Notes under the pieces: generated by a model
The model's input: the letters and a program-made list of their open reading frames with translations, nothing else
What the model was told of the DNA's origin: nothing
Database searches by the model: none
Made by a program: the position numbers and the translations under genes
Part shown: one piece after another, positions 1 through 13,606 of the stretch
How the letters are laid out: each line of letters opens with the position of its first letter
Position numbering within the stretch: the first letter of the stretch is position 1
Assembly (NCBI GenBank): GCA_028289405.1
Contig: JANQPP010000050.1
Span: 1 to 64,000, forward strand
Length of the DNA stretch: 64,000 nt
Source: Pirellulales bacterium
GTDB lineage: Bacteria; Planctomycetota; Planctomycetia; Pirellulales; JANQPP01
Direction: 5' to 3'

Positions 1-1027
1 TGTCCTTCTGTTTAGCGCCCAACGCGCGACGAATGCCGATTTCGCGGGTACGCTCCGTCACCGTGGCCAGCATGATGTTCATAATCCCGATCCCGCCCAC
101 GACCAACGAGATGGCGGCGATGGAGCCCATGAAGGCGATAAACATCAGCCGGGTTGTGCGTGCTTGTTCCAGCAGTTCCAAGGGGACGACGACCGCCGTA
201 TCATCGATTTCGTGGTTTAGGGAAAGCGTGTCGGTCACCAAATCGGCCGTTCGCGTGACGTTGGATACATCGTCGACGCGCAGCGTGATTTGGCTAAGTT
301 CAATGATTTCGCCTTCTCGGCTACCGCCTCGGCTGGTAAACACCCGGTCTCCCACGCGTTGCCAGAGCGTGCTGATGGGAATGTAGACGTCCGAGTTGAA
401 TTCTTGCGCGGCCAGGGAACCTCCAATGCCGGCGGTAGGGTTGCGTGGCCGCATTACTCCCACGACGCGGTAATAATCCTCCTGCACGCCGATGGTCTTT
501 TCCAGGGGATCCTCCAAAGGAAACAGCCGAGCGGCCGTATCCGCGGCGAGCACGCACACATTGACCCCGCTTTTGAGGTCCGCGGCGGTGAGGAATCGGC
601 CTTGTTCCACGTTGAGATGCATGAACTCGGCATATTCCGGAGTGCAGCCCACGAGCCTCCCGTCCAGTTGGTTGCGGCCTCGTCGAAATTGTCGCCGGAC
701 TTCACGAATGGGCAGCGCTTCGCGAATGGTGGGGATCGTGGAGGAGATCACCTCGTAATCCCGGCGGAGTACGCCGTACTGCACGAAGAAGTCGTCGCTA
801 TCCAGTTCTTCACTCGCCGGCTTCACCGTGCGGACAATGATATTGTCCGCGCCCAGGCTCTCGATCTGTTCCCGTGCTTTGCGGCTAATGCCTTCACCGA
901 TTGCCAGCAGCCAGATCACGCTGGAAACACCGATGAAAATCCCCAGCACCGTCAGCAGGGAACGCATCGGGTGCAATAGGAGGCTTTTGATGCCGATCGT
1001 CCAGGTTCGCAATCCCCAGAGGCTCAT
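1..1027 (-). CDS. ABC transporter permease, MacB/FtsX-like (3' end truncated by window edge)
   Basis: Reverse-strand reading from ATG at 1027 gives [66 protein letters not shown], a typical MacB permease N-terminus. ATGA overlap with the upstream ATPase stop. Confidence 0.85.
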   Translation of the reverse strand, partial: MSLWGLRTWTIGIKSLLLHPMRSLLTVLGIFIGVSSVIWLLAIGEGISRKAREQIESLGADNIIVRTVKPASEELDSDDFFVQYGVLRRDYEVISSTIPTIREALPIREVRRQFRRGRNQLDGRLVGCTPEYAEFMHLNVEQGRFLTAADLKSGVNVCVLAADTAARLFPLEDPLEKTIGVQEDYYRVVGVMRPRNPTAGIGGSLAAQEFNSDVYIPISTLWQRVGDRVFTSRGGSREGEIIELSQITLRVDDVSNVTRTADLVTDTLSLNHEIDDTAVVVPLELLEQARTTRLMFIAFMGSIAAISLVVGGIGIMNIMLATVTERTREIGIRRALGAKQKD

Positions 1028-1710
1028 CGAATTCGCTCATCGGATTGAAGTAGCCCGTCTCGTAACCGGATAATTCGCTTCGCCCGTTGCGCGACTTCTT
1101 CTTCGTGCGTGACCATGATGATCGTTTTGCCTTCTTGATTGAGACGCTCTAGCAGTTCGAGAATCTCGCCGGTCGTCACCGAGTCCAGGTTTCCCGTGGG
1201 CTCATCGGCCAGCATGAAGTAGGGATCATTGACGAGGCTGCGGGCAATCGCCACGCGCTGTTGCTGGCCACCGGAGAGTTGGGCGGGCCGGTGCCCGAGG
1301 CGGTCCGCGAGTCCCACCATGCCTGCCAAGTGGTGGCAGCGATCCCGGTCTTCCGGACGCAAGCGTCCCTGGTAGTACAACGGGACTTCGATATTTTCCA
1401 AAACGGTCAATTGTTGGATCAGATTGTACGATTGAAACACGAAGCCGATACGCGTGGCCCGAATCTCGGAAAGATCATCGTCTTCCATGCGGGCCACATC
1501 GTCTTCTCCGAGAAAATAGCTTCCAGCGGAGGGGCGATCGAGGCAGCCTAGCAGATTCAAGAGCGTACTCTTTCCCGAGCCGGAGGGACCCATGATGGCC
1601 ATGTAGTCCCCTTCGGGCACCTCCAGGGATACTCCCCGCAGAGCGCGGACGGTTTCCGCCCCCATTTGGTAGTATTTTCGTAAATCCTCGATACGGGCCG
1701 CCAATTGCAT
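1024..1710 (-). CDS. ABC transporter ATP-binding protein (MacB/LolD family)
   Basis: Walker [10 protein letters not shown], signature [15 protein letters not shown], Walker [12 protein letters not shown]. Confidence 0.93.
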
Positions 1711-1755
1711 GGGATTGCAACCTGTTGTAATGAACTCGGGAAAATTCTCAGCGTG

Positions 1756-3285
1756 CTATGTATCGGTGCCCGCGGATGTACGCGACGCGGGAGAGTTCGT
1801 TTCCGCCTCTGTCTGAGCGACCGTTTCCGGCGTCGTTTCTTCAGGAGTTTCAATACTCTCGGCTTCGTCGCTCGCGGATTCGGGTTTGAAGTGGTCCCAA
1901 TATTTGCGGATGTTCATGGCGACTTCATCCGACTCTTCCAACCCACTTCGCACGACCACGAACGAGTCGTTATTCGCGCCGATGTCGACGGATTGCGCGA
2001 TGAAATCTCCGCCCCTTTTGACCAGCGTGAAGTACTCCTCCGCATGCTGCATCACGGCTTGTACGGGAATTTGCAAGGCATTCGGAATTTCATCGACCAA
2101 GATCTGCGCTTGAGCCGTTAGGCCAGGCCGGATTTCCTCGCTCGTGTCCAGAATTTCCACGACCGCCAAATATTCCTTCGTGCTGGAACTCCACCCGCTA
2201 GGCTCTGGGTAGTCATTCACTTTCGTCACTCGGCCACGCAATTGCATGTCCGGAAACGCATCCACCAGCACGACCGCTGGCATGCCAACCTTGACAAGGC
2301 TGATCCGCGATTCGTTCACGCGGGTATCGACCTGCATTTTGTTGGGGTCCGGCAATCGGCAGATTATCTGTTGTTCACGAAGAACCGCCCCCGCTTCGAT
2401 AATGATGTCGTCTCCGCCCCGCCTTCCTTGTTGGTTGGCGTAAACGACTTGCCCCGCAGCCGGCGCGTGAATTTCGCAGGCATCGATTTGTCCCTGAATT
2501 TCCTTGAGCTTCGCGACGTCCAGTTTGTAACTGCTCTCGTCGGCCATCCATTTCGCTTCGGCGGTTTTGATGTCCGCGTCGAGCTGAGTCAGCATTTTTT
2601 CCTTGGTGTGGTTGCGGAGTACGTAGAGCTTCGTGTTGGCCAGCTCGAGATCGTTTTTGGCCTTATCAAGAGCATATTTATCCGCCTCGAGTTGGATCGC
2701 CGAATTGTATCCCTTGCGGGCCATGCGTTCGGAGAATTCCAGGACTTGCTCGGCCCGCCGTTCGGACTCCTCGGCCACGAAGATTTCGCTTTGAATGGTC
2801 TGCTCCAACTCACGAAATTCGCCATCCAGGTAACTTTCCTTGGCGATCACGGCCAGATCATAGACATTCTTCGACTGAATCAAGACAGATTTGCTGGTGT
2901 TCTCCACGATCTGTTGCTGGGTTAGCTCCAATTCCAAGCTGGAAGCGTCCAGGCGGCACAACAGATCGCCTTCATTCACGAAAGTTCCCTCGGGCACGAT
3001 GGAAAGAATGGTCGTGCCCGTGGTGTTCCGGCTCTTCACCTGGCAGCGAATGTCCACATTGGTGCTGCTGCTGATCTCTCCCCGCTCGGTCACGATCTGA
3101 GAGAAATCACCGCGCGATACCCGATGGAGCATGACATCGTCCATGGATACCTGCTCCGGCGCCGCCGCCAGGCGATACCAAATTCCGGCTCCCAATGCCG
3201 TGACGACGGCAATAGCGAACACGATGATGCTGACCGCGATGCCACGAGGAGGTTTCTTCGAAGTCAACCTTCGCGAATGGGTCAT
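1756..3285 (-). CDS. HlyD/MacA-type efflux periplasmic adaptor subunit
   Basis: N-terminal TM, biotinyl-lipoyl-like and long coiled-coil regions; next to the MacB-type ATPase and permease. Confidence 0.85.
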   Translation of the reverse strand: MTHSRRLTSKKPPRGIAVSIIVFAIAVVTALGAGIWYRLAAAPEQVSMDDVMLHRVSRGDFSQIVTERGEISSSTNVDIRCQVKSRNTTGTTILSIVPEGTFVNEGDLLCRLDASSLELELTQQQIVENTSKSVLIQSKNVYDLAVIAKESYLDGEFRELEQTIQSEIFVAEESERRAEQVLEFSERMARKGYNSAIQLEADKYALDKAKNDLELANTKLYVLRNHTKEKMLTQLDADIKTAEAKWMADESSYKLDVAKLKEIQGQIDACEIHAPAAGQVVYANQQGRRGGDDIIIEAGAVLREQQIICRLPDPNKMQVDTRVNESRISLVKVGMPAVVLVDAFPDMQLRGRVTKVNDYPEPSGWSSSTKEYLAVVEILDTSEEIRPGLTAQAQILVDEIPNALQIPVQAVMQHAEEYFTLVKRGGDFIAQSVDIGANNDSFVVVRSGLEESDEVAMNIRKYWDHFKPESASDEAESIETPEETTPETVAQTEAETNSPASRTSAGTDT

Positions 3286-5744: not shown

Positions 5745-6593
5745 ATGGGAATATACGATCGCGGCTACTACCGGGAAGAAACCTCCGCTGGATTCGGCGG
5801 CGGCCCTCGGTCCTTGGTTGTCAACCTGATCATCATCAATGTTGGCATCTTCTTAGCCAACGTACTCCTGCTTGATAACCGGCTGAACGGCTGGATGGCG
5901 CTCTCGTCAGATATATTCACTCGGCCATGGAACGCCTGGCAGTTACTTACTTATGGCTTCGCACATGATGACGAGAAATTCGCACACATATTCCTCAACA
6001 TGTTCGCCCTGTTCATTTTTGGTCGGGACGTGGAGGGAATCTACGGCAAACAGCGTTTCCTGCAGCTTTATCTGTCTCTGATCATCTGCTCCGGGCTGGT
6101 CTGGGCGATCTTGGAAAGCCTTTCCCCCGGTCCCGCTTCCATGATCGGTGCTTCGGGGGCGATCATGGGCATTCTCGTAATCTACGTGATGCATTATCCC
6201 CGGCGAACGTTTTACGTGTACGCCATCCTGCCCGTGCCAGCATGGTTGCTGCTGGGTTTGTATCTGTTGCTGGACTTGTCGGGTGCGGTGTCGCCTGGAG
6301 AAAGCCGAGTCGCCTTCACGGCGCATCTCGCCGGCGCCGCGTTTGGCTTTCTGTTCTACAAGACGGGATTTCAATTAGGCGGGCTTCTCCCGCAAGATTT
6401 CTCGGGATTCTTCAAGCGGCGTCCCCACCTGCGTGTGCATCGCGGATCGGATTCTTCGCCGAAGGAAAATCTTTCCGAGGAGGTGGACCGAATCCTGGAA
6501 AAGATCAGCCGTTCCGGTGAAGCCAGCTTGACTTCCCGGGAACGTGACACGCTGGAAAACGCCAGCCGTCGATACCAACAGCGTCGGCAGTGA
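5745..6593 (+). CDS. Rhomboid family intramembrane serine protease
   Basis: GASGAIMG Ser motif, HIFLNMFALFIFG, C-terminal His in HLAGAAFGF. Start taken at MGIYDRGYY within ORF 5667..6593. Confidence 0.9.
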   Translation: MGIYDRGYYREETSAGFGGGPRSLVVNLIIINVGIFLANVLLLDNRLNGWMALSSDIFTRPWNAWQLLTYGFAHDDEKFAHIFLNMFALFIFGRDVEGIYGKQRFLQLYLSLIICSGLVWAILESLSPGPASMIGASGAIMGILVIYVMHYPRRTFYVYAILPVPAWLLLGLYLLLDLSGAVSPGESRVAFTAHLAGAAFGFLFYKTGFQLGGLLPQDFSGFFKRRPHLRVHRGSDSSPKENLSEEVDRILEKISRSGEASLTSRERDTLENASRRYQQRRQ

Positions 6594-6636
6594 AGGCGTG
6601 CGAATACCGCCAGCGAACACAATTCCTCGTTTGATC

Positions 6637-7938
6637 CTATGCGAAATCAGGATACTCCCAAGGACCTCGATATTCGCGTTGCAGATGGCGATTGGCTTCG
6701 TCATCACCGACCACCAATTCCCGCTCTCCATCCCACTCAATGCTGCGGCCCAGTTTGAGCGACAACATCCCCAACAGGCTCATGTTCGTCGACCGGTGTC
6801 CGATTTCAATGTCGCACGCGGGGCGACGATGATTTTCAATCGCGGAGAGAAAATCGGCCCAAAGCTCACGGATGTTCTGCTGGTCCGGTTCGTGCAGTTC
6901 AGGATCTTCATGGATGACTTTTTGTGACTTGATGTTGTTAGGGTAAAAGGTCCAGCCATCGCGCCATCCCATGTGGAAGGTCCCCTTGGTGCCGTAGAAA
7001 TAGCAGCCGATGTTCGTGCTTTCCGCGTTGTTCGCGCCGTACTGCCGATGTTCCCAAGCGGCGGTGAAGGAATCGAATTCGAAACTGGCGTATTGGGTAT
7101 CGGGCGCGGTGGTGTTGTCTTCCTTGATGTGCCGTCCGCCGGTGGAAAAAACCCGCCGGGGATACTTTTCCTCCGTCCACCAGAGGATTTGGTCCATCCA
7201 GTGAATGCCCCAGTCTCCCAGCGTGCCATTGGCATAATCGAGAAACTGGCGGAAACCCTTGGGATGGAGCTTGCTGTTGAAAGGGCTTAGCGGGGCGGGA
7301 CCGCACCACATATCCCAATCAAGTCCTGTTGGCGGTTCCGAGTCGGGCGTTGGGCTGCCCGGACCGCCTGGATAATGCACGAATGCCCGCACGGCACCGA
7401 TTTCTCCAGCGTTCCCCTCTTTCAAGAATTTCATCCCCGAAACGTTGTGCGGCGAGACTCGGCGGTGCGTGCCCACTTGCACTACACGGTCCGTTTCTCG
7501 GGCCGCCTTGACCATGGCCCGACCTTCGCGAATGGTATGGCCGACCGGTTTTTCCACGTAGACATGAGCGCCAGATTGGACCGCCGCGATGGTGATTAGC
7601 GGATGCCAATGGTCAGGCGTGGCCACGATCACGATTTCCGGCCGCGTCTCGTGGAGCAGTTCGCGATAATCGTGGAATTTCTTGGGCTGATCTCCGGTCA
7701 ATTCCTCGACCTTGGCTGTGGCGAGGTCAAGCTGATTCGTGTCCACATCGCACATGGCGACGACTTTGGAGCGCTGGGAGCGCATCGCCTCGCCGAGGAT
7801 GTTCATTCCCCACCACCCCGTGCCAATCAAGGCGGTGCGGTAGGTCTTGTTTTCGGCGGAGCGGAGAATCCGCGGCGCGCCCAAAGCAAGGCTCGTGGCC
7901 AGAGACGATTGAACAAATTCCCTTCGAGTGAGCGTCAT
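6637..7938 (-). CDS. Gfo/Idh/MocA family oxidoreductase with N-terminal signal
   Basis: LTRREFVQSSLATSLALGAPR (Tat-like), Rossmann region ALIGTGWWGMNILGEA, EKPVGHT motif. Confidence 0.9.
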   Translation of the reverse strand: MTLTRREFVQSSLATSLALGAPRILRSAENKTYRTALIGTGWWGMNILGEAMRSQRSKVVAMCDVDTNQLDLATAKVEELTGDQPKKFHDYRELLHETRPEIVIVATPDHWHPLITIAAVQSGAHVYVEKPVGHTIREGRAMVKAARETDRVVQVGTHRRVSPHNVSGMKFLKEGNAGEIGAVRAFVHYPGGPGSPTPDSEPPTGLDWDMWCGPAPLSPFNSKLHPKGFRQFLDYANGTLGDWGIHWMDQILWWTEEKYPRRVFSTGGRHIKEDNTTAPDTQYASFEFDSFTAAWEHRQYGANNAESTNIGCYFYGTKGTFHMGWRDGWTFYPNNIKSQKVIHEDPELHEPDQQNIRELWADFLSAIENHRRPACDIEIGHRSTNMSLLGMLSLKLGRSIEWDGERELVVGDDEANRHLQREYRGPWEYPDFA

Positions 7939-8107: not shown

Positions 8108-9439
8108 GTGCGTTTTCGGGCAAAACCGATTATGATGTGCGTCGGGATCAGCGGCTCCGCGGCTCCCAATATCTTATCAAACGAACCGACTTCGATCGCG
8201 CATAGGTTGGGAAGCATGCAGCCGGAAGGTAGTGGGAAAGGCTATGCTCGCGGCGGCGAATACCAGCTTTCCGCGCCTGCGCCGGGGTCGCGGCAAATGA
8301 CGGCGCCCACGGTGAAGGCCCCACAAACTCCGCCGGCCAGAGTTCCGCCGCGCCGTCGCAAAGGACAGTGGTTCGTGGGCACGATGCTGATGGCCGTGCT
8401 GTGCTATGCCGGGTACCAGGTGTGGCACGGGTTCTTTCGCTACCAAGCTTTCGGCACCGTGGTAGGCCGGGCCATCGAGATCAGCCCGCCTTGGAATGGA
8501 ATTGTCCGTTCGGTGCATGTGACCGAAGGCGAAGTCGTCCGCCAAGACCAGCTCCTGGTCACGGTGGACAATGTGGAGCTGCAACAGCGAATCGCGAAGC
8601 TGGAAGATGAACTGCGCATCGCCCAAGCGGATTTGGAGGCTGAAGCCTCGAAACTCAAATGGCGGATGGCCCAAAATCACGACCTGCATCAGGAAACCTG
8701 GTCCGAATATTACCGCGCCCTGGGAAACCTCTACGTGGAGGAAGCCCGGCTGGGCGAAGCGAAGGTGACTCACCAGCGGATGGTCGGGCTGCATGCCCAG
8801 GATAAGATCACCAGCCAGCAAATGGAGGAATTGGCTTTTCAGGTTCAGGGATTGGAAAAGAAAGTGGACAATCTCCGGACCGCGCTGGTGGAATTGCGCA
8901 AGGGCCTTGACCTATCGAGCGACCTTTCCGCGGACGGTGCCGACCAACTCAAGCCGTTTTTCGCCCGCATTGAATCGCTGCAGACGGAGCTGGCACGTCT
9001 GCGGGAGCTGCTCACGATGGGGGAAGTCAAGGCACCCGCCAACGGTTTGGTGCTCCGGCGGCACCGCTACACGGGCGAGCACGCGCCGGTTACCAATCCT
9101 CTCTTGACGTTGGTGGAGGAAGGGTCGCTGGAAATCGTGCTGTATTGCCGGCAGCACGCGGTGGGAAATATCGAAGAAGGGGATGTGTTGAAGGTCGTTG
9201 TCGAACCCGAACCCGATCCCATTCGCTGCCGCGTGGCCCGCATTGGGGACCAGTACGAAGCGGCCCCCGCCCATATCCAACGCAATTATTACGCGCGAGA
9301 AAACTTGCTTCCTGTATATTTAAAGCCGTTGGTCAGCCACCCGCGATTAAAAATTGGCGCCACCGTGAAACTCCCGTACAGCGATGAACGAGCACCCTTT
9401 GACACCGTGGAATTGGGGGGAAACATCCCAGGCCGATGA
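8108..9439 (+). CDS. HlyD-family membrane-fusion-like protein (Alg44-like periplasmic part); start uncertain
   Basis: One N-terminal TM, lipoyl-like halves IVRSVHVTEGEVVRQDQLLVTVDN and VKAPANGLVLRRH around a coiled coil. Stop overlaps the start of the next ORF (ATGATG at 9436). In-frame alternative ATG at 8216 or later. Confidence 0.75.
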   Translation: MRFRAKPIMMCVGISGSAAPNILSNEPTSIAHRLGSMQPEGSGKGYARGGEYQLSAPAPGSRQMTAPTVKAPQTPPARVPPRRRKGQWFVGTMLMAVLCYAGYQVWHGFFRYQAFGTVVGRAIEISPPWNGIVRSVHVTEGEVVRQDQLLVTVDNVELQQRIAKLEDELRIAQADLEAEASKLKWRMAQNHDLHQETWSEYYRALGNLYVEEARLGEAKVTHQRMVGLHAQDKITSQQMEELAFQVQGLEKKVDNLRTALVELRKGLDLSSDLSADGADQLKPFFARIESLQTELARLRELLTMGEVKAPANGLVLRRHRYTGEHAPVTNPLLTLVEEGSLEIVLYCRQHAVGNIEEGDVLKVVVEPEPDPIRCRVARIGDQYEAAPAHIQRNYYARENLLPVYLKPLVSHPRLKIGATVKLPYSDERAPFDTVELGGNIPGR

Positions 9440-10290
9440 TGCCACGACGAACACCCGCTGAAGAGCAGGCCGCTTCTTCTCCAGTTCGCCGCGATTCTCC
9501 TTCGACATTTCCGCCGCTTTCCGACATTCTTGTCTTCCAGAAAGACGAGGTGTTGGCGCGCGTCGCGAAGGTGCGCGGCTGGCTGGTCGAGGTGAGCTCG
9601 CGAGATATTGAACTGGAATTTCAAACCAGCGTCCGCTTTCCCGAAGATGACCATCTCGTCTTCGGCATGGACGCTTTGAATGGGGAGACGCAGTACGCCG
9701 AGATCAACATCGATAATTTCTACCGTTCCTCCTCGGGCAAAGTGCGGGTCGTGGGCCACTCCGCCGGCGTGGTGCAGGATATTCTGAATCAGCCCTTGCA
9801 CGCGCCCTATTTATGCCCGAAGACGCATACGTTTCGTTTCGCTCATCCGGAATCGCTGCTGCGGCAACTTTGCGGCTTGGGCATCGTCGAGGAAGCATTT
9901 TTGGATCGTGTGGAGGTTTGTCCGAATTGTTCCGGCCTGCCGACATTCCGTCCCGGCTGCCAGCATTGCGGATCTCCGAGAACTACGCTGGACCGGCTGA
10001 TCCACCATTTTGCTTGCGGCTACGTCGGATTCGTCTCCGAGTTCGAGGATGCGGGACGAATCATTTGCCCCAAGTGCCGCACGAAGGATTTGGTCGTGGG
10101 CGCGGATTTCGAATACATCGATGGAGCCCACCGGTGTTTCGATTGTGCCCAACATTTCGAGAAGCCCGAACGGATTGGCCACTGTCTCGGTTGTGATTTC
10201 CGTTTCCCCGCGCAGCAAGCCGATTTGCATGATCTCATGGGATTTCGCCCTAAACGGCTGGACATTTTGGCTTTCAGCCCTGCATCGTGA
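9436..10290 (+). CDS. TackOD1-type zinc-ribbon domain protein
   Basis: CPNCSGL-RPGCQHCGS-HHFACGYVG-CPKCRTKDL-CFDC-CLGC series matches my memory of the TackOD1 metal-binding output domain (C-x2-C pairs with HHFxCGYVG and CPKC). Confidence 0.7.
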   Translation: MMPRRTPAEEQAASSPVRRDSPSTFPPLSDILVFQKDEVLARVAKVRGWLVEVSSRDIELEFQTSVRFPEDDHLVFGMDALNGETQYAEINIDNFYRSSSGKVRVVGHSAGVVQDILNQPLHAPYLCPKTHTFRFAHPESLLRQLCGLGIVEEAFLDRVEVCPNCSGLPTFRPGCQHCGSPRTTLDRLIHHFACGYVGFVSEFEDAGRIICPKCRTKDLVVGADFEYIDGAHRCFDCAQHFEKPERIGHCLGCDFRFPAQQADLHDLMGFRPKRLDILAFSPAS

Positions 10291-11530
10291 CGAGCTGTGG
10301 TGGACCATGGGGGGGCTGCTCCTGGTGGATGGCCCTCGGTACGCCCTCAGCAAGGCGGTGATGTTCTTGTGGGACGCGCTCACCGGCAACTGGCCCTTGA
10401 AGAGCGTGCAAGATCAAGAGATCGAGGACCGCTACGAGCCGAGCGTGTGTGTCGTGCTTGCCGGCTACAACGAAGCGGAAACCGTTGAAGCCACGCTCAC
10501 CTCAATTTGGGGCACCTATCCCCGCTTGGAAATCATTGTCATCGATGATGGTTCCGAAGACGACATGCACTGTGTGGCGCAAAATTTCGCCCAGGATCAC
10601 GCGGGGATTTTGGTGCTCCGGAAGCCCCAACGAGGGGGCAAATCTTCGTGCATCAACTTCGCGCTGAAGTATACCGAGGCCGAAATTGTCGTGGTGGTCG
10701 ATACGGATTCGCATCTCGCGCCTGACGCGTTATGGGAAATCGTGCAGCCATTAGCCGATCCGCAAGTCGGCGCCGTGTCCGCCACGGTCCTGGCCCGCAA
10801 CACGACCACCAACCTGATTACGTGGCTACAAGCCGAGGAATATCTGCATAGCATCTTCGTGGGACGGATGCTCGCCGAACGTTTGGGCATCGTCAGCGTG
10901 GCTTCGGGAGCGTTCGGTGCCTTTCGGCGCGAGGCCGTGCAGCGCGTGGGCGGTTGGGATGTCGGCCCTGGAGAGGATGGAGATATTACCCTAAGGCTAC
11001 GAAAAATGGGCTACGACGCGGTGTTCGCGCCTTACGCGGAGTGTTTCACCAATGTTCCGGAAAGCTGGCCGGCGTTGTTCCGTCAGCGGCGTCGCTGGAA
11101 CCGGGGCACGATCCGCTACAAATGCCGCAAGCACGTCGACATGGCGTTCTTTTGGTATCCCAATTTTCGCTTCAGCAACCTGTTACTGCTGCTGAACGTG
11201 TGGTTCTTCAATATCGTCTGCTTGTATGGCTTTTGGATTTACGTCCTGGGGTGGCTGATTGCCCCGCCCGATGATCTGTTCTTTTTCCTGTGGACGACCT
11301 ACGTGGCCTATCTGATGTTCCACGTGCTGCAAGTCGCCGTGGCGCTCGCCTATTCGCGGAACCTGCGCCGGGACGCCGCCACCAGTGTCGTGCTTCCTTT
11401 CGTTCCCATCTACCAGCTTTTTCGCAAATGCGCGCGGCTGATCTCCGTCACGGAAGAATTGTTCTTCCGACGGTCTTTTGACGACAACTACGTCCCCTGG
11501 CATGTCCGCGAGGCAACCTGGCATTGGTAA
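10229..11530 (+). CDS. GT2 family processive-type membrane glycosyltransferase
   Basis: VLAGYNEAETVEATLTSI, DDGSEDD, DTDS, GEDGDI and RQRRRW motifs plus multiple TM helices. Start inferred at MISWDFALNGWTFW (10229); alternative ATG at 10307. Confidence 0.88.
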   Translation: MISWDFALNGWTFWLSALHRDELWWTMGGLLLVDGPRYALSKAVMFLWDALTGNWPLKSVQDQEIEDRYEPSVCVVLAGYNEAETVEATLTSIWGTYPRLEIIVIDDGSEDDMHCVAQNFAQDHAGILVLRKPQRGGKSSCINFALKYTEAEIVVVVDTDSHLAPDALWEIVQPLADPQVGAVSATVLARNTTTNLITWLQAEEYLHSIFVGRMLAERLGIVSVASGAFGAFRREAVQRVGGWDVGPGEDGDITLRLRKMGYDAVFAPYAECFTNVPESWPALFRQRRRWNRGTIRYKCRKHVDMAFFWYPNFRFSNLLLLLNVWFFNIVCLYGFWIYVLGWLIAPPDDLFFFLWTTYVAYLMFHVLQVAVALAYSRNLRRDAATSVVLPFVPIYQLFRKCARLISVTEELFFRRSFDDNYVPWHVREATWHW

Positions 11531-11548: not shown

Positions 11549-13606
11549 CTACTTCCCTAACTCCTGCACGATGCGTTCGGCTCCGTAGATGTTGGCGAGC
11601 ACTTCACGGATCGCGCTGGAATGCACGGAAACCGCGCGGGCCACGATATCGGTGTAGATGTAGTCGCTGGTGAGCGAATGGATGTTGCCGTCGAAGATCA
11701 GGCCGACCAATTCGCCTTCCTTATTCACGACGGGACTTCCCGAATTGCCTCCGATGATGTCCGCGGTGCAGACGAAGTTGAAAGGCGTGGAAAGATCGAG
11801 GGCGTCCCGCTTCTCATGCCAACTTTCAGGAAGCTGCCAAGGATCCGCCGCGCCGTGATGCTTTTCATGGGCGAAGGCGCCGCTCAGATCGGTCCAAGGC
11901 GGAATCCGCTGGCCTTGTTCCTCGTAACTTTTCACGGTGCCAAAGGCGAGCCGTAATGTGAACGTGGCGTCCGGATAGGTCGAAGTGCCGCGCAAAGCGA
12001 ATAAGGCATCCGAAATTTTGGCGTACATCTGCTGCTCTATCTCATTGATTTCGTCCAATTGCTTGCGGATCCGTCGGCTATGCTCGTCAAGCTGCCGGGC
12101 AAAACGGACCAGCGGGTCGGACGAAGCCTCGATCGCCTCGCTGCCGCCTTCGGCCAGTTCGCGGCGTTTCTCCACATCGAACAGTTCCGTCCCTTGAATG
12201 AGTTCGGCCCCGCGCTGCTGCGGGTTCTTGCCGTCCAACAACTCGCGAAAGAGCAGGCTGTCCACGCCCATTTGCTCCACGGCGTTTTCCAGGGATTCGG
12301 CCAGCTTCACTTGTTCCAAGTCGGCGTAGATGGGAGCGGTGGAAAACAACTGCTGCTCCAAGGAGGGGCGTCCCGATTCGCGGTACTCCGGCAGGCGTTC
12401 CGCGTTCGGTTTTTGATCCTCCTCGGCCAGCCGGACCAGATGCCGGGCAATGCCGAACAGCGTGGAATAAACGCGGAAGCTCTCCTTCGACAGCCGCTTT
12501 TTTTCCTGTTGTGCCGCCGCGATGGCTTCCCAAGCCGAGAGATACGACGTGAAGCGTTCGTCTTCTTGTAGGGCACTCTTGAGCGCCAATTCCTCTCGCC
12601 GCTTGGCTTCCATGAGCAGCGGGTCCTGCAAACCGCGCAGCATGCCGGTGAGCGCCTTTCGGCTATTCTGCACGGAAAACAGGTCATCCTGCCCCCGGCG
12701 GCGGGCTTCAGGGCCATCGAGGCTGAATTGTTGCAGCGCGATTTCCAAGCGGCGAATGATGTTCAAGCGGTCCGGCAGTTGCACGTCGCGTTGATGTTCC
12801 AACGCCGCGACGGTATGGATGCGATTCGTGCGGCCTGGATTCCCGGAAACGAAGACCAGTTCACCGTCTTCGGCGCCATTTTTCGACCATGCCAAATGGT
12901 GTTCCAACTCGGCCGGTTTGCCGTCCACGTAGACGCGAAATAGGCAGGCGTCGAGGCAATAGCGTGGATATTCGAAATTGTCCGCGTCGCCACCAAAGAA
13001 GGCCGCGGCCGCTTCGGGAGCCCAGACCAGCCGCACGTCCGTGTATCGTTGGTAGCGATAGAGGTGATAACGTCCGCCGCCGTACAGCGTGACCACATTG
13101 CTCCGCAATCCCGTCCGATCGAAGGATTCCTTCTCGATCTCGGCGATCACGGCATTGCGGGCGGCAAACGCCTCGCCAGGAGACATTTCCGCTTTCACGG
13201 CGGCATTCACCCGCTCGGTGACATCCTCGATCTCCACCAGTTGGTTCAATTCCTCATCGGGCGCGGGAATCTCCTCCTCGAGTGTCCCGGCGTAAAACCC
13301 GTCGCGATAGTAGTTATTCTCTGGCGTGGAGAGCTTATGCAAAGTTTCCGCTCCCACGTGATGATTGGTCAGCACGAGCCCCTGGCTGGAGACAAATGAA
13401 CCGGAGCCGCCGGAGTTGAAACGCAGCGAGGACTTCATGATGTGCTCGGCCCAATCATTAGACGGCGTGAAGCCGTACCGCTCTTGGAGCAATTTCCGGG
13501 GCAGGTCATTGAAGATCCACATACCTTCGTCACCACGCACGTCGCTCAGTCCCATCATGCCTCCCACGCACGCCAAACTCAGACAAACACTTCGCCACTG
13601 GTTCAT
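11549..13606 (-). CDS. S46 family serine peptidase (dipeptidyl-peptidase 7/11-like)
   Basis: MWIFNDLPRKLL, LVLTNHHVG (His), GGNSGSPVVN (Ser), signal peptide. Confidence 0.92.
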   Translation of the reverse strand: MNQWRSVCLSLACVGGMMGLSDVRGDEGMWIFNDLPRKLLQERYGFTPSNDWAEHIMKSSLRFNSGGSGSFVSSQGLVLTNHHVGAETLHKLSTPENNYYRDGFYAGTLEEEIPAPDEELNQLVEIEDVTERVNAAVKAEMSPGEAFAARNAVIAEIEKESFDRTGLRSNVVTLYGGGRYHLYRYQRYTDVRLVWAPEAAAAFFGGDADNFEYPRYCLDACLFRVYVDGKPAELEHHLAWSKNGAEDGELVFVSGNPGRTNRIHTVAALEHQRDVQLPDRLNIIRRLEIALQQFSLDGPEARRRGQDDLFSVQNSRKALTGMLRGLQDPLLMEAKRREELALKSALQEDERFTSYLSAWEAIAAAQQEKKRLSKESFRVYSTLFGIARHLVRLAEEDQKPNAERLPEYRESGRPSLEQQLFSTAPIYADLEQVKLAESLENAVEQMGVDSLLFRELLDGKNPQQRGAELIQGTELFDVEKRRELAEGGSEAIEASSDPLVRFARQLDEHSRRIRKQLDEINEIEQQMYAKISDALFALRGTSTYPDATFTLRLAFGTVKSYEEQGQRIPPWTDLSGAFAHEKHHGAADPWQLPESWHEKRDALDLSTPFNFVCTADIIGGNSGSPVVNKEGELVGLIFDGNIHSLTSDYIYTDIVARAVSVHSSAIREVLANIYGAERIVQELGK

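Follow-up and report, generated by a model that had tools for sequence, protein, structure and literature searches.

The window, i.e., the whole 64,000-nucleotide stretch of Pirellulales DNA analyzed here, contains three open reading frames on the plus strand, which encode an HlyD-like protein (8108–9439), a TackOD1 protein of 284 residues (9436–10290), and a GT2 synthase of 433 residues (10229–11530). An earlier reading, made from the sequence alone, had described these genes as tightly coupled, and the coordinates confirm this: the HlyD and TackOD1 genes overlap by 4 nucleotides at 9436, and the TackOD1 and GT2 genes by 62 nucleotides (10229–10290). The features of the locus are as follows:

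8108..9439, plus strand: HlyD-like (membrane-fusion/periplasmic adaptor) gene; Pfam HlyD_3, E = 1.5e-10
9436..9439, plus strand: ATGA overlap of the HlyD gene stop and the TackOD1 gene start, read from the sequence
9436..10290, plus strand: middle gene (284 aa), PilZ-like domain followed by TackOD1 domain
9514..9789, plus strand: degenerate PilZ-like domain, residues 27–118; orthologue HMM, AlphaFold, and Foldseek
9844..10245, plus strand: TackOD1 zinc-ribbon domain, residues 137–270; Pfam PF18551, E = 4.5e-26
10229..11530, plus strand: GT2 processive-type synthase gene (433 aa); Pfam Glyco_tranf_2_3, 3e-31
10700..10708, plus strand: DxD motif (D158, D160); D158 invariant and D160 at least 90% conserved in 30 sequences
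10973..10978, plus strand: catalytic ED (E249, D250); D250 invariant and E249 at least 90% conserved in 30 sequences
11084..11098, plus strand: QxxRW motif (Q286–W290); Q286, R287, and W290 invariant in 30 sequences

The length of the GT2 is counted from the ATG at 10229. The start of the HlyD gene is uncertain, the GTG at 8108 being only the most upstream start and the ATG at 8216 also being possible. The HlyD-like protein additionally matched the NCBIfam family RND_mfp (E = 2.4e-18), with a score that falls short of the family cut-off. Because the genes on either side of the triad (6637–7938 and 11549–13606) both lie on the opposite strand, the operon probably is self-contained and consists of exactly these three genes. 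An Rfam scan of the window gave no match. Outside the triad, the minus strand of the window holds, by appearance, genes for a MacA-like adaptor, an ABC ATPase, and a MacB-like permease (2–3285).

The GT2 protein combines the DxD, ED, and QxxRW motifs with flanking membrane helices, as is typical of processive GT2 enzymes. A Foldseek search with its AlphaFold model (pLDDT 89.7) retrieved hyaluronan synthases and BcsA, with E-values of about 1e-16 to 1e-13. Only about 20 residues follow the last long helix in this model. The second-best GT2 match in the source genome is very distant, scoring 43 bits versus 1018 bits for the protein itself. Based on these motifs and on the similarity of the fold to hyaluronan and cellulose synthases, the three genes likely encode an exopolysaccharide synthase, as the sequence-only reading had suggested. 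None of the curated synthase cut-offs was reached by the GT2. The nearest was that of PgaC/IcaA (157.5 versus 422 bits, NCBIfam equivalog), and an assignment as a PNAG synthase (PgaC) was rejected on this score. Cellulose synthase (BcsA/CelA) was rejected at 52 bits versus a CelA cut-off of 699 and with a GT2 that lacks a C-terminal PilZ domain, and alginate synthase (Alg8/Alg44) with the PilZ-like and membrane-fusion parts residing on separate proteins here.

The middle protein had been assigned to TackOD1 before any profile search, and this assignment held: the score against PF18551 was 92 bits, compared with a cut-off of 32 bits, with profile positions 1–50 left unmatched by the protein. 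An alignment of 24 orthologues revealed 11 invariant cysteines in the TackOD1 domain, in addition to an invariant H190–H191 pair, and the 11-Cys pattern supports membership of the family. TackOD1 occurs above the cut-off only once in the 6.4-Mb source genome. A sequence search of the PDB with the query protein P0002 returned nothing useful. A previous study described TackOD1 in archaeal response regulators and pilus loci and called its function obscure (PMC5847659). The domain in that study resembles the one in the window in being a multi-CxxC domain with 11 cysteines, described as an output domain joined to REC, and differs from it in that a link to a synthase is not reported there. Our literature search found no paper tying TackOD1 to a synthase.

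GT2 orthologues (E ≤ 1e-60; identity 46–58%) were found in 20 genomes, the window's own included, upon searching 398 genomes of the class, with extra cases taken from G240, G770, and G820. The order HlyD, TackOD1, GT2 on one strand was present in all 24 of the orthologous loci examined that hold the GT2, which come from more than 20 planctomycete genomes, so that the triad expected from the sequence-only reading is indeed conserved in related genomes. A single TackOD1 in the source genome and an arrangement kept in 24 of 24 loci place the triad beyond chance. In a tree of GT2 sequences, the GT2s of the triad clade formed one group (support 100/100). The sister of this clade, L061, has the same gene order, but here TackOD1 is combined with a degenerate GGDEF domain. 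Two GT2 orthologues, at L100:3881-5167 and L118:4887-6181, are split into two ORFs, in L100 by an in-frame TAG, and are either pseudogenes or assembly errors.

Within the phylum, TackOD1 is present in 17 of 294 genomes, and in about half of the TackOD1 loci it adjoins a GT2 related to that of the window, usually in the form of a TackOD1–GGDEF protein. When contigs were scanned with P0002 as the sole query, a single planctomycete locus was retrieved. The TackOD1 clusters of L029 and L033 also contain HlyD and an OEP outer-membrane channel, and those of L030 and L040 contain an OEP gene; the source genome has 10 OEP and 10 GGDEF matches. The C-terminal part of the OEP protein at L029:8287-10398 weakly matches glycosyl hydrolase 18 (1.7e-5). 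On bacterial plasmids, TackOD1 and GT2 were neighbors, judged by annotation or coordinates, in 15 of the 15 records with a P0002 match. The alpha- and gammaproteobacterial plasmids with this pair, mostly accompanied by HlyD, belong to Phyllobacterium, Methylocystis, Roseibium, Aminobacter, Rhodobacteraceae, Palleronia, Plesiomonas, Photobacterium, and Aeromonas, and almost all of the longest GT2 matches in the plasmid collection are TackOD1-adjoining ones. TackOD1 without a GT2 close by was seen in L035, L041, and most haloarchaeal proteins, and a plasmid of Sinorhizobium medicae (L077) carries a related GT2 (5842–7086) followed by an HlyD-like gene, without an adjoining TackOD1. Thus, neither TackOD1 nor the GT2–HlyD pair strictly needs the other. 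TackOD1 proteins were also observed on the haloarchaeal plasmids L070, L072, and L076, the last of which (Halorussus) has a DUF2334 gene and a GT2 directly after.

None of the three proteins encoded by the triad had a Pfam match to PilZ. An HMM built from 10 orthologue N-domains, with that of the window protein left out, was used to look beyond this level of detection. It gave the window protein a score of 20.2 bits (E = 5.9e-5); among 2000 shuffled sequences, the highest score was 8.7 bits. In the AlphaFold model (pLDDT 88.9), the N-domain consists of seven strands and a closing helix. Foldseek matched this domain to BcsA and free-standing PilZ chains with probabilities of 0.93–1.00; the E-values were weak, none being lower than 0.02, and other β-rich folds ranked equal to the PilZ chains. 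Direct Pfam matches to PilZ (PF07238), all below the cut-off, were obtained for the orthologues L045 (E = 2.6e-4), L115 (0.0043), and L117 (0.063). Taken at the level of homology and fold, with the weak E-values noted, these data support a PilZ-like domain in the window protein. The sequence-only reading had named a detectable PilZ domain in one of the three proteins as grounds for its own refutation; such a domain is revealed only through homologues, as the window's own copy lies below Pfam detection. Its proposal that TackOD1 stands in for PilZ did not survive, given that the middle protein has a PilZ-like domain of its own and that the c-di-GMP motifs RxxxR and [DN]x[SA]xxG are both kept in seven of the 24 orthologues (L045, L027, L103, L104, L107, L109, and L117). 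In the window protein, EVSSRD occupies the place of [DN]x[SA]xxG and RxxxR is absent. With both motifs missing, its PilZ-like domain has probably lost standard c-di-GMP binding, judging from the sequence, which would mean that the input is altered or lost.

The N-terminal part of the TackOD1 protein varies among relatives. It is PilZ in L045 and, with weaker matches, in L115 and L117; REC and a PilZ-like domain precede TackOD1 in L027, L107, L109, and L100; and in some orthologues the N-terminus is REC alone. Three of the REC-only loci have a GGDEF gene inserted between TackOD1 and GT2, in which both RxxD and GGDEF are intact:

L060:4501-5562: inserted CBS-GGDEF gene
L108:6668-7639: inserted GGDEF gene
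L110:6335-7336: inserted GGDEF gene

More distant TackOD1 proteins often carry a C-terminal GGDEF-like domain. The GG[DE]EF motif occurs in none of the TackOD1-search proteins among the matches listed, and 18 of the relatives that have a GGDEF-like domain retain an RxxD in the register of the I-site. These relatives thereby have the PelD-type combination of a lost catalytic GGDEF and a kept I-site, which is not a feature of the window protein. Several alphaproteobacterial TackOD1 partners show no clear RxxD. The PilZ-like domain of the middle protein and the degenerate GGDEF domains of the relatives place TackOD1 beside a c-di-GMP receptor and not in its place. Since the receptors beside it change, TackOD1 has the appearance of a fixed element through which interchangeable receptors are linked to the synthase, and the simplest reading of the GT2 tree, with L061 as sister to the triad clade, is that the receptor has been swapped around a constant TackOD1–GT2–HlyD core.

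We consider it likely that the triad encodes a synthase-dependent exopolysaccharide machine in which the middle protein is the control subunit, made up of a constant TackOD1 and an exchangeable receptor. The GT2 would polymerize sugar from a nucleotide donor and pass the chain through the inner membrane, and the HlyD-like protein would span the periplasm, its probable partner in the outer membrane being a TolC-type channel whose gene lies elsewhere in the genome. The middle protein would be cytosolic. Its TackOD1 zinc ribbon, as the constant part, would engage the synthase, and the signal, ancestrally c-di-GMP, would be received by the domain joined to it, which is PilZ-like in the window and a degenerate GGDEF or REC in relatives. 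We infer the physical contact between TackOD1 and GT2, the gating of the latter, the type of polymer, and the outer-membrane partner. A regulatory role of the middle protein, already proposed in the sequence-only reading, is likely in view of the receptor-type domains beside TackOD1. More tentatively, TackOD1 could be a dedicated synthase-coupling adaptor for PilZ, degenerate GGDEF, and REC domains across bacteria, with the c-di-GMP receptor of the window's lineage decayed and the synthase gated by another input, an extended proposal that we judge somewhat more apt to fail than to hold. TackOD1 has so far had no known job, and its recurrence beside a GT2–HlyD synthase in distant bacteria, with changing receptors, suggests a testable role in passing signals to a polysaccharide synthase. 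The arrangement would define a class of synthases run by a separate cytosolic subunit, as opposed to a PilZ domain that is part of the synthase itself, as in BcsA, or of the adaptor, as in Alg44.

One alternative, which we regard as doubtful but worth serious consideration, is that the PilZ-like domain of the window still binds c-di-GMP at a noncanonical site and that regulation is ordinary. The PilZ-like fold retained in the AlphaFold model and the 10 GGDEF domains in the organism's own genome are consistent with this, as is the c-di-GMP binding of the C-terminal tail of BgsA, which has no PilZ motifs (PMC5567048); the loss of both PilZ motifs argues against it. It is also conceivable, if unlikely, that in the window's organism the middle protein does no switching and serves the GT2–HlyD complex as a structural scaffold or in its assembly. 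Such a role would agree with the constant TackOD1 core and with the degeneration of the PilZ motifs, which is seen in the window protein as well as in L113, L114, and L119, but most relatives keep receptor-type domains (REC, PilZ, and GGDEF-like). Clearly less probable is a sensor function of TackOD1 itself, in which the multi-Cys ribbon would read a metal or redox state and gate the GT2, with PilZ or GGDEF as accessories. The invariance of the 11 cysteines and the HH pair over 24 proteins, and the complete Cys set of a window protein whose PilZ-like domain lacks the c-di-GMP motifs, fit this idea; however, the invariant cysteines, arranged in CxxC pairs, fit structural zinc equally well, no conserved metal or redox control genes were seen beside TackOD1, and the recurrent c-di-GMP-type domain partners point to another input. 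The metal or redox gating put forward in the sequence-only reading gained no positive support, the 11 invariant cysteines fitting a structural multi-zinc ribbon. A GT2 that transfers sugars singly or forms a lipid-linked sugar, with the HlyD gene serving something else, is highly improbable: the closest sequence relative of the GT2 in the PDB is indeed the mannosyltransferase PcManGT, but QxxRW, the membrane helices, the fold near hyaluronan and cellulose synthases, and the clustering with HlyD and OEP genes speak for a polymer.

The preferred reading, a synthase with TackOD1 and an exchangeable receptor in its control subunit, can be compared with known systems. In BgsBA, the rhizobial mixed-linkage β-glucan synthase, which is activated by c-di-GMP, an HlyD-like gene lies upstream of the GT2 gene in one operon and the GT2 has no PilZ domain, as in the window (PMC9495663, PMC5567048). 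In contrast to the window, where the TackOD1 gene lies between HlyD and GT2, bgsBA is described as bicistronic with nothing between, and BgsA senses c-di-GMP by its own C-terminal tail, for which the short tail of the window GT2 offers no counterpart. Alg8/Alg44 shares with the window a GT2, a PilZ domain, and a membrane-fusion domain (PMC8461298), but Alg44 holds the latter two in one protein, whereas the window has two proteins, one of which combines the PilZ-like domain with TackOD1. The cyanobacterial XcsAB–TolC system likewise has a GT2, an HlyD-like protein, and a proposed TolC channel, but its PilZ domain is on the synthase and no TackOD1 is described (PMC12430437). The degenerate GGDEF receptors PelD and BcsE resemble the TackOD1–GGDEF relatives in having lost the catalytic motif and kept the RxxD I-site; Pel differs from the window in its soluble GT4, with no TackOD1 described, and the window protein has no GGDEF (PMC8461298).

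In three reports (PMC3691769, PMC7666153, PMC3409153), MxdABCD of Shewanella oneidensis is described as biofilm machinery needed for biofilm, MxdA as a degenerate GGDEF protein that binds c-di-GMP, and cells with mxdA or mxdB deleted as deficient in aggregation. The composition of this system, with MxdA as effector, MxdB as GT2, and MxdC as an efflux-pump-like protein, resembles the TackOD1–GGDEF/GT2/HlyD loci of Plesiomonas and Photobacterium, a likeness drawn from gene layout and published descriptions and not from sequence. The window differs in having a PilZ-like domain instead of GGDEF, HlyD as the first gene, and no counterpart of MxdD; a degenerate GGDEF was not found by Pfam in the window protein and is present in relatives. 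By this analogy, we suspect that MxdA carries TackOD1, and Mxd may be a studied member of this kind of synthase, which would give a possible frame for a poorly explained system.
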